DNA of 41,305 nt, taken from positions 1 to 41,305 of the forward strand of contig NZ_LWUA01000101.1 in the NCBI RefSeq assembly GCF_005222955.1. The letters run 5' to 3'. Both the position numbers and the translations under genes were made by a program. Origin of the DNA: Blastococcus sp. CCUG 61487 (GTDB lineage Bacteria > Actinomycetota > Actinomycetes > Mycobacteriales > Geodermatophilaceae). The notes under the pieces were generated by a model. That model worked only from the letters and a program-made list of their open reading frames with translations, ran no database searches and was not told the origin of the DNA. Shown piece after piece: positions 7,064 through 8,596 of this stretch. Numbering within the stretch: position 1 is the stretch's first letter; every line of letters begins with the position of its first letter.

Positions 7064-7396
7064 TTATCCGCGAGCGCCGCCGGGCCGGAAGATCGCCAGC
7101 AGCTCGTCCACCTCGTGGTCCGCGGTCGCCGGGTGGCGGAAGTGCTGGTGCGGCCGCAGCTCGTAGTGCGTGCGCCGGCCGATCCGGGTGCGGGTGAGGT
7201 ACCCGGCGTCGTCCAGGTCGCGGAGGATGCTCAGCGCGGCACGGGTGCTGATGCCCACCGTGGTCGCGATCTCCTCGACTCGGGCGTCACCGTCGGCCGC
7301 GACCGCGAGCAGGACGTGCCCGTGGTTGGTGAGGAAGGTCCAGGTCGGGCGCCCTGCCGCATCGCCGTCCCCACCGCTCCGCGCACTCGCCGTCAT
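7064..7396 (-). CDS. winged-helix transcriptional regulator
   Basis: A 110-residue DNA-binding protein. After a short polar N-terminus, the segment TWTFLTNHGHVLLAVAADGDARVEEIATTVGIS starts a winged helix, with the recognition helix around TRAALSILRDLDDAGYL and the wing at TRTRIGRRTHYELR. The C-terminal helix (HPATADHEVDELLAIFRPG) may dimerise or sense a ligand. There are no Cys residues, so a thiol metal site is unlikely. The ATG at 7396 is chosen over the in-frame GTG at 7414 because the hexamer CACACT ends exactly 6 bases before it. A palindrome overlaps this promoter, suggesting autoregulation. The gene is divergent from the TerC gene, though that gene has its own riboswitch. Confidence 0.82.
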   Translation of the reverse strand: MTASARSGGDGDAAGRPTWTFLTNHGHVLLAVAADGDARVEEIATTVGISTRAALSILRDLDDAGYLTRTRIGRRTHYELRPHQHFRHPATADHEVDELLAIFRPGGARG

Positions 7397-7414
7397 AGGT
7401 GAAGTGTGCTTCAC
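7397..7414 (-). promoter_or_regulatory. leaderless promoter and palindromic operator of the winged-helix gene
   Basis: On the minus strand CACACT (plus-strand 7403-7408) lies 6 bases before the ATG. It is the centre of a perfect inverted repeat, GTGAAG-TGTG-CTTCAC, at 7399-7414, with arms extendable by two bases at one mismatch. A repressor bound here would cover the -10. Autoregulation by the adjacent winged-helix protein is inferred. Confidence 0.55.
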
Positions 7415-7423
7415 TTGTTCGAG

Positions 7424-7541
7424 CGGAGGGGAGTACCCCCCAGCGTCTCGTCGTCAGTACGGGCCCTCGGAGGGCACCCGGCGAGGCGGGCCCGTACGAG
7501 CGGGCCGGGAGAGACCTCCGGTTGGTGGCACCGACCGGAGG
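7424..7541 (+). ncRNA. yybP-ykoY (manganese) riboswitch candidate in the TerC leader
   Basis: A leader RNA just upstream of a TerC/Alx gene, the classic partner of the yybP-ykoY Mn2+ riboswitch. P1 is a perfect 6-bp helix, CGGAGG (7424-7429) with CCTCCG (7515-7520). The conserved GGAGTA follows the 5' strand at 7430-7435, and AGAGA precedes the 3' strand at 7510-7514, as in known examples. A perfect 10-bp helix (7457-7466 with 7488-7497) forms an inner stem. The 3' strand of P1 is also part of an 11-bp hairpin, 7515-7525 with 7531-7541, loop of 5, that sequesters the GGAGGAG ribosome site at 7537-7543. Metal binding would keep P1 formed and free the ribosome site, so the predicted response is ON. 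The family assignment is from recalled consensus; the helices are seen directly. Confidence 0.8.
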
Positions 7542-7549
7542 AGTTGCTC

Positions 7550-8596
7550 GTGGACGTCTCGTCGTGGTTGTGGCTGGCCGTGCTCGGCCTTCTCGTCGCC
7601 ATGCTCGCCGTGGATCTGTTCGCCCATCGCCGGGCGCACGTGATCGGCGTGCGCGAGGCCGCGACGTGGTCAGCGGTCTGGGTGGCGCTCGGCGTCGCTT
7701 TCGGCGGGTGGATCTGGGCGGTCCACGGCGCGGAGTTCGGCCAGCAGTACTTCGCCGGGTACCTCATCGAGAAGTCGCTGGCCGTGGACAACGTCTTCGT
7801 CTGGGCGATCATCTTCGGCTACTTCGCCGTCCCCCGGGAGTTCCAGCACCGGGTGCTGTTCCTCGGCGTGCTCGGTGCCCTGGTGTTCCGCGGGCTGTTC
7901 ATCGCCGGCGGCGCCGTGCTCATCAGCAGCTTCGGCTGGGTGCTCTACCTCTTCGCGGCGTTCCTGCTGGTCACCGGTTACCGGATGATCCGCCGGCGCG
8001 ACGAGCACCTCGACCCCGACAGCAGTCGCGTCCTGCGGCTGTTCCGCCGCTGGGTGCCGCTGACCGACGCCTACCACGGACAGCGGTTCCTGGTCCGGCA
8101 CGGCGGCCGGCTGGTGGCCACTCCGCTGCTGGCCGTGCTCGTGCTCGTCGAGGTCACCGACATCGTCTTCGCGGTCGACTCGATCCCGGCGATCTTCGCG
8201 GTCACCGAGGAGCCGTTCCTGGTCTTCACCGCCAACGCCTTCGCGATCCTGGGCCTGCGCGCGATGTACTTCCTGCTGGCCGACCTGATCCACCGCTTCG
8301 TCCACCTGAAGCTCGGTCTGGCGCTCGTGCTCGTCTGGGTCGGCATCAAGATGCTGCTGAAGATCGACGTCGTCTACGTCCCGACCACGATCAGCCTCGC
8401 GGTCGTCGCCACGATCATCGGCACCTCGATCTGGCTGAGCCTGCGCGCCACCCGGGGTCAGGGTCGGCAGCCTCTCGAGCCACCGGCCGACCCGCCGTTC
8501 CGCGTCGCGACGGAGGCCGAGACCGCGGCGCTGGAGCCGCTGTGGCAGCGCCGCGCCCGGACGTCTGGACGCACAGACGTGACCACCGGGCCGTGA
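7550..8596 (+). CDS. TerC/Alx family integral membrane protein (probable metal exporter)
   Basis: A 348-residue protein of the TerC/Alx family with about eight or nine membrane segments. The two family blocks are present: EKSLAVDNVFVWAIIFGYF near residues 73-91 and VEVTDIVFAVDSIPAIFAV near 198-217, with the paired acidic residues thought to handle the metal ion. Family members linked to yybP-ykoY riboswitches are involved in Mn2+ export or metalation of exported proteins; the substrate here is inferred from the leader. The GTG at 7550 is set by GGAGGAG at 7537-7543. That site is buried in a hairpin of the candidate riboswitch, which implies translational control. The hydrophilic C-terminal tail of roughly 45 residues is variable in the family. 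Confidence 0.9.
   Translation: MDVSSWLWLAVLGLLVAMLAVDLFAHRRAHVIGVREAATWSAVWVALGVAFGGWIWAVHGAEFGQQYFAGYLIEKSLAVDNVFVWAIIFGYFAVPREFQHRVLFLGVLGALVFRGLFIAGGAVLISSFGWVLYLFAAFLLVTGYRMIRRRDEHLDPDSSRVLRLFRRWVPLTDAYHGQRFLVRHGGRLVATPLLAVLVLVEVTDIVFAVDSIPAIFAVTEEPFLVFTANAFAILGLRAMYFLLADLIHRFVHLKLGLALVLVWVGIKMLLKIDVVYVPTTISLAVVATIIGTSIWLSLRATRGQGRQPLEPPADPPFRVATEAETAALEPLWQRRARTSGRTDVTTGP

Follow-up and report, generated by a model that had tools for sequence, protein, structure and literature searches.

One survey reported riboswitches of the yybP-ykoY class in over 75% of its taxonomic groups (PMC3766115). According to the accounts of the crystal structures of the L. lactis and X. oryzae aptamers (PMC9190785, PMC6754395), the metal-site residues lie in L1 and L3 and P1 serves as the switch helix, together with a four-way junction and a competing transcription terminator. 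The Mn2+ site of L. lactis is described as G9, U39, C40, A41, U44 and C45 (PMC9190785), Mn2+ is reported to stabilise P1.1 (PMC6754395), and the first G:C pairs are reported to nucleate P1.1 (PMC11087558). In E. coli, alx was reported as Mn-sensing (PMC9603457) and mntP as a translational ON switch (PMC11647493). The leader of cg2157 (terC) in Corynebacterium glutamicum was described as a yybP-ykoY element, with a 5'UTR observed by RNA-seq and an RF00080 score of 49.13 bits (PMC3890552). The class, its ligand, its association with TerC and an actinobacterial case, namely C. glutamicum terC, are already known, and the leader described here is a further member. Among the open-licence literature matches listed, no title dealt with an actinobacterial translational Mn2+ riboswitch.

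The window, that is, the whole stretch of DNA analysed, comprises 41,305 nucleotides of the soil bacterium Blastococcus sp. CCUG 61487 (contig NZ_LWUA01000101.1, forward strand). An open reading frame on the + strand (7550-8596), with GTG at 7550 as the start codon, encodes a TerC/Alx family metal exporter, which matched PF03741 with 178.3 bits and the NCBIfam subfamily TIGR03718 'R_switched_Alx' with 409.5 bits (cut-off 246.4), indicating a gene of the Mn2+-export type downstream of the leader. The ribosome-binding site GGAGGAG (7537-7543, +) lies 6 nt before GTG. Like the C. glutamicum element, to which it was likened by the published description (PMC3890552), this is an actinobacterial terC leader, and comparable leaders were found upstream of TerC genes in many related actinobacteria. 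We consider it very probable that the leader is a yybP-ykoY Mn2+ riboswitch, in a P2-less form resembling that of alx, which controls the translation of TerC/Alx.

For the comparison, a leader set of 110 entries was used, consisting of 80 loci with titles, 29 more loci from a family search and the window. The L1 motif GGAGTA was present at the right distance in 100 of these entries (90 distinct leaders and 10 duplicates), and the entries without it (L003, L021, L031, L045, L046, L073, L090, L091, L110 and L111) were left out of the pair counts. The motif-less entries include duplicates, as L003 and L090 have the coordinates of one and the same gene and the leaders of L003 and L045 are identical over 150 nt; also among them are Blastococcus terC copies accompanied by another terC elsewhere, as well as distant paralogues (about 45% identity). 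In L031 (Flaviflexus huanghaiensis) the terC leader kept the aptamer 3' half and the ribosome-site hairpin and lacked the GGAGTA half, which may reflect decay or a different 5' end. Of the 90 distinct leaders with the motif, 53, picked by eye for variety, made up alignments A1 and A2.

All parts of the aptamer lie on the + strand. The 5' strand of P1, CGGAGG (7424-7429), runs into the 5' side of L1, GGAGUA (7430-7435), which was invariant in 53/53 aligned rows, the rows themselves having been selected on this motif. The 5' strand of P1.2 (7437-7439) pairs with 7507-7509 and is supported by covariation, pair 7437-7509 being C-G in 44 and U-A in 9 of the 53 rows with zero exceptions, and pair 7439-7507 being absent in 8. 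The P3 arm with L3 and P3.2 (7446-7486) showed as many as 18 compensatory rows for a single pair, and the P4 hairpin (7489-7506) has four pairs, each changed on both sides, with 87.1% of cells paired. The 3' side of L1 is AGAGA (7510-7514), of which the final AGA was invariant (53/53); the L1/P1 3' side of the window reads GAGACCUCCG, compared with GAGACCAGGGAU in X. oryzae, for which GAGACC is reported at the L1 3' side (PMC6754395). RNAalifold predicted P3, P3.2, P4 and the ribosome-site hairpin unprompted, and cannot give P1 alongside the hairpin because both use one strand. A local GGGG/CCCC hairpin preferred by RNAalifold at L1 was rejected in favour of P1.2, because the C-to-U change in column 20 was matched by G-to-A in column 110 in 9/9 rows.

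The metal-site loop L3, GUCAGUACG (7453-7461, +), contains C7455, A7456 and C7460, which were invariant in 53/53 rows. Its consensus is G-U-C-A-N-Y-N-C-G, with C41, A42 (column 42, A7456) and C46 invariant, so that C-A-x-x-x-C was kept in every row; U40 was found in 50/53 rows, and the Y position was G in 2/53. The window loop agrees with U39-C40-A41-x-x-U44-C45 of L. lactis apart from U44, which is A here, and because L3 aligns with this published Mn2+ site, A7456 is the expected metal-sensing A (PMC9190785). Metal-site residues in L1 and L3 and a switch helix formed by P1 are thus in common with the L. lactis and X. oryzae aptamers, whereas the four-way junction and the competing transcription terminator described for them are not (PMC9190785, PMC6754395). 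No P2 or four-way junction was found in the aligned leaders, which have just a short linker between P1.2 and P3. P2 therefore has no room, and the junction is three-way, seemingly as in E. coli alx; since this leader, reported as Mn-sensing (PMC9603457), fits the P2-less model with only a 2-nt insert there, P2 was not taken as defining. Between L3/P3.2 and P4, we also observed a perfect 10-bp complement, GTACGGGCCC (7457-7466) with GGGCCCGTAC (7488-7497), a rival helix that could bury the L3 metal loop; by eye, relative L002 has only GGGCCC in common with it.

The initial annotation had proposed the RF00080 covariance model as a check on the yybP-ykoY assignment, and this check succeeded in part. 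A permissive scan of 221 bases gave RF00080 as the best family, but the match (7411-7506) was sub-threshold, with 16.7 bits and E 0.0067 against a cut-off of 45, and a whole-window Rfam scan at the gathering score returned no RF00080 match. None of the 20 actinobacterial relatives scanned, out of 80 fetched, reached this score. At its cut-off, RF00080 (release 15) also misses the alx leader of E. coli K-12 and an mntP leader from a different E. coli; because these leaders fail too, the cut-off cannot decide membership, and we dropped the gathering score as a decisive test. A covariance model built from 53 actinobacterial aptamers only, termed R1, found E. coli alx end to end with 36.9 bits and E 5.4e-9; the E. 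coli mntP leader was not found up to E 10. The assignment to the class was borne out by this retrieval of alx with a leader-only model and by the conserved site residues in L1 and L3.

R1 identified four sites in the window's own genome. The terC leader of the window scored 82.9 bits, a match to a training sequence since this leader belongs to the training set, and the sites C220, C234 and C221 scored 64.1, 61.8 and 44.2 bits. They are followed by genes of the GDT1/UPF0016, TerC and GDT1 type (L115, L116 and L117, respectively), GDT1 being a divalent cation/proton antiporter according to Pfam. By eye, the switch strand of each of these three sites can pair with a downstream strand. A fifth site, C278 (18.6 bits), was rejected as chance, having an E of 0.48 and lying within a long coding frame. 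In the class, 77 of 118 genomes, the window's own included, had an R1 match at E up to 1e-4. Given that 0/20 relatives reached the Rfam cut-off, this points to under-annotation of Mn2+ riboswitches in these genomes. Among 29 class loci (best matches, one per genome), a TerC or GDT1-type gene was found downstream in 26, counting L141 and L152, for which the anchor was a GGAGTA within terC itself. The other three loci, L145, L149 and L153, gave no TerC/GDT1 match downstream of the R1 site. Their R1 sites are strong, and the short frame at L149 resembles a small membrane protein; it is possible that these sites serve other regulon genes.

E. coli K-12 alx (L113) is close to the window in several respects. 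Its L1 is identical, R1 aligns with it end to end without P2, its gene is annotated alx and the window protein belongs to the Alx subfamily, and the alx L3 loop, GUCAUUACG, is that of relative L013. The alx P4 is longer, with 30 nt where R1 has 3, and the alx start codon is far downstream of the switch strand, whereas the switch strand of the window pairs directly with the ribosome site. E. coli mntP (L112) has L1, GGGGAGTA, in common with the window, as well as the translational ON logic reported for it (PMC11647493). By eye, mntP differs from the window in its L3 and in having a P2-like hairpin.

The core of the proposed switch is the strand CCUCCG (7515-7520, +), which forms either the 3' strand of P1 or the anti-ribosome-site strand. 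The initial annotation had claimed this strand (CCTCCG in the DNA) for both P1, with 7424-7429, and a hairpin over the ribosome site, and both helices were found where it had placed them. The OFF-state hairpin (7515-7541, +) is made of CCTCCGGTTGG (7515-7525) and CCGACCGGAGG (7531-7541) around the loop TGGCA, with 11 pairs including one G-T. This description held as read from the sequence and changed on folding, when a 12th pair (7526-7530) was added and a 3-nt loop remained. Within the ribosome site, GGAGG (7537-7541) is enclosed in the hairpin, whose end lies 8 nt upstream of GTG. Of the six P1 pairs originally described, the outermost (7424-7520) was unpaired in 30/53 rows, but the five-pair core is conserved and was intact in 88/90 distinct leaders. 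The 151-nt region had a fold z-score of -2.84, with equally good folds in 1/200 shuffles; comparison among the leaders gave the stronger evidence.

Covariation, which the initial annotation had suggested seeking in the leaders of TerC orthologues, was present in both helices beyond shuffled controls; the shuffle figures given here are not probabilities, because shuffling leaves the relatedness of the leaders in place. For the hairpin, 92.8% of cells were paired in the 53 leaders, and 67 doubly changed cells were counted, compared with 19.0 ± 6.7 in shuffles (0/500 as high) and 7-15 when the hairpin was slid along the alignment. By a weaker measure, 7 pairs showed double-sided change, a number reached by 43/500 shuffles. 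At least 8 hairpin pairs could form in 90/90 distinct leaders with mismatches allowed, a count with a weak control, as 7% of shuffled tails reached the score of the fifth-lowest leader. For the aptamer (P1, P1.2, P3, P3.2 and P4), 91.1% of cells were paired and 151 were doubly changed, compared with 45.6 ± 7.2 in shuffles (0/500 as high) and 18-50 in slid versions, and none of five aptamer measures was reached by any of 500 shuffles. Loss of both alternative helices in close homologues, named in the initial annotation as a sign against the switch, was not seen among aptamer-carrying leaders, the 10/110 entries without the L1 motif standing apart.

Three-strand covariation was observed directly in columns 9/119/142 (window 7426/7518/7538), which read G-C-G in 40 rows, A-U-A in 7 and A-U-G in 6, with P1 and the hairpin both paired in 53/53. 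Columns 11/117/144 read G-C-G in 31 rows, G-C-A in 21 and A-U-A in 1 (Rhodococcus ruber, L009); in the 21 G-C-A rows P1 remains paired there, and C-A leaves hairpin pair 117-144 unpaired. By the shared strand and this three-strand covariation, P1 and the ribosome-site helix are mutually exclusive, which amounts to a very compact wiring of an Mn2+ aptamer to a ribosome site.

Based on published work on the class, we infer that Mn2+ is the ligand and that it turns translation ON. P1 and the aptamer are predicted to form first during synthesis of the leader; Mn2+ bridging L1 and L3 would then hold P1 closed and keep CCUCCG off the ribosome site, so that the exporter is translated. Without Mn2+, CCUCCG would enter the 12-bp hairpin after 7531-7541 has been made, hiding GGAGG and turning the gene off. 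In stepwise folding without Mn2+, the four outer P1 pairs reached 0.77-0.93 with the RNA end at 7524-7532 and fell to at most 0.03 once the RNA reached 7536 and beyond. Against the model, the inner two P1 pairs reached only 0.35-0.41, and P1 stood at 0.05-0.11 with the RNA end at 7520. Folds with and without a P1 constraint, also proposed in the initial annotation, gave the expected outcome on one side only: the hairpin won without the constraint, and with P1 enforced the ribosome site was just partly free. The hairpin alone had -21.3 kcal/mol, and P1-enforced ensembles were 13.9-16.0 kcal/mol less stable than the hairpin ensemble, energies that exclude tertiary docking and Mn2+. Given the much greater stability of the hairpin, the choice between it and P1 is probably made kinetically, within some 10-20 nt of transcription; the gene is OFF in the model unless something holds P1, and the decision would therefore have to come early. 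With P1 enforced, 7537-7543 were unpaired at 0.16-0.97 in RNA ending at 7552, and 7535-7541 at 0.03-0.73 in RNA ending at 7560. In these modelled folds the ribosome site is only partly open, which counts against a clean ON picture.

The same aptamer could also work mainly on transcription, with the hidden ribosome site letting Rho stop transcription and translation being secondary. Rho-dependent control has been described for E. coli mntP (PMC11647493), and sequence alone does not separate a Rho-mediated from a translational output; we nevertheless hold this to be rather unlikely, given that the hairpin sits right on the ribosome site and that a scan revealed nothing resembling an intrinsic terminator. 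It is considerably less probable that the leader is a yybP-ykoY variant for another divalent metal instead of Mn2+. Altered-specificity variants are suspected within the class (PMC7266159), and the window and E. coli mntP differ in several bases of L3. However, in the window L3 the invariant A of the published Mn2+ site is retained, as are most of the residues flanking it (PMC9190785), the alx loop recurs in relative L013, and all four own-genome sites lie upstream of TerC or GDT1 exporter genes. That just a conserved ribosome-site hairpin and a promoter are present, with an aptamer likeness produced by chance in G+C-rich sequence, would fit the sub-threshold RF00080 score, but is scarcely credible against the excess of doubly changed aptamer cells over shuffles and the retrieval of E. 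coli alx by R1.

A translational Mn2+ switch of the yybP-ykoY class, our preferred reading, leaves one part of the locus aside. The palindrome GTGAAGTGTGCTTCACT (7399-7415, no strand assigned) is a candidate protein-binding operator over the probable promoter and, standing beside an ArsR-like gene, is the least explained extra of the locus. TGAA-N6-TTCA is an ArsR-type operator. Allowing up to 1 mismatch, the form GTGAA-N6-TTCAC was present within the 80 nt preceding GGAGTA in 54/90 leaders and absent in 36, and of 63 leaders with the palindrome at up to 2 mismatches, 57 had it starting 29-34 nt before GGAGTA. The 17-mer pattern GTGAAN6TTCACT occurs once in the 4.1-Mb own genome, and any further site there for the 16-mer GTGAANTNTGNTTCAC has at least 2 mismatches. 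Since a sigma-70 scan found no promoter, the promoter was placed by the palindrome position and by boxes resembling TTGAC that were noted by eye in a few relatives. The divergent gene (7064-7396, - strand) encodes a small winged-helix regulator, ArsR/SmtB-like by a weak match (NF033788, 28 bits, below the cut-off of 55), and we would guess that its product binds the palindrome. A tentative extension, which we think may well not hold, is that metals control terC at two successive levels in these actinobacteria. A repressor of the ArsR-like kind, which for the window would be the divergent gene's product, would act on the conserved GTGAA-N6-TTCAC over the promoter; RNA starting within a few bases of P1 would then decide once, kinetically and according to Mn2+, during the 10-20 nt that precede synthesis of the ribosome site. 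No ArsR-like relative was matched at the palindrome-bearing Arthrobacter loci; in 18 of the other 89 loci, relatives of the 7064-7396 product were found upstream of terC, within up to 2.5 kb.
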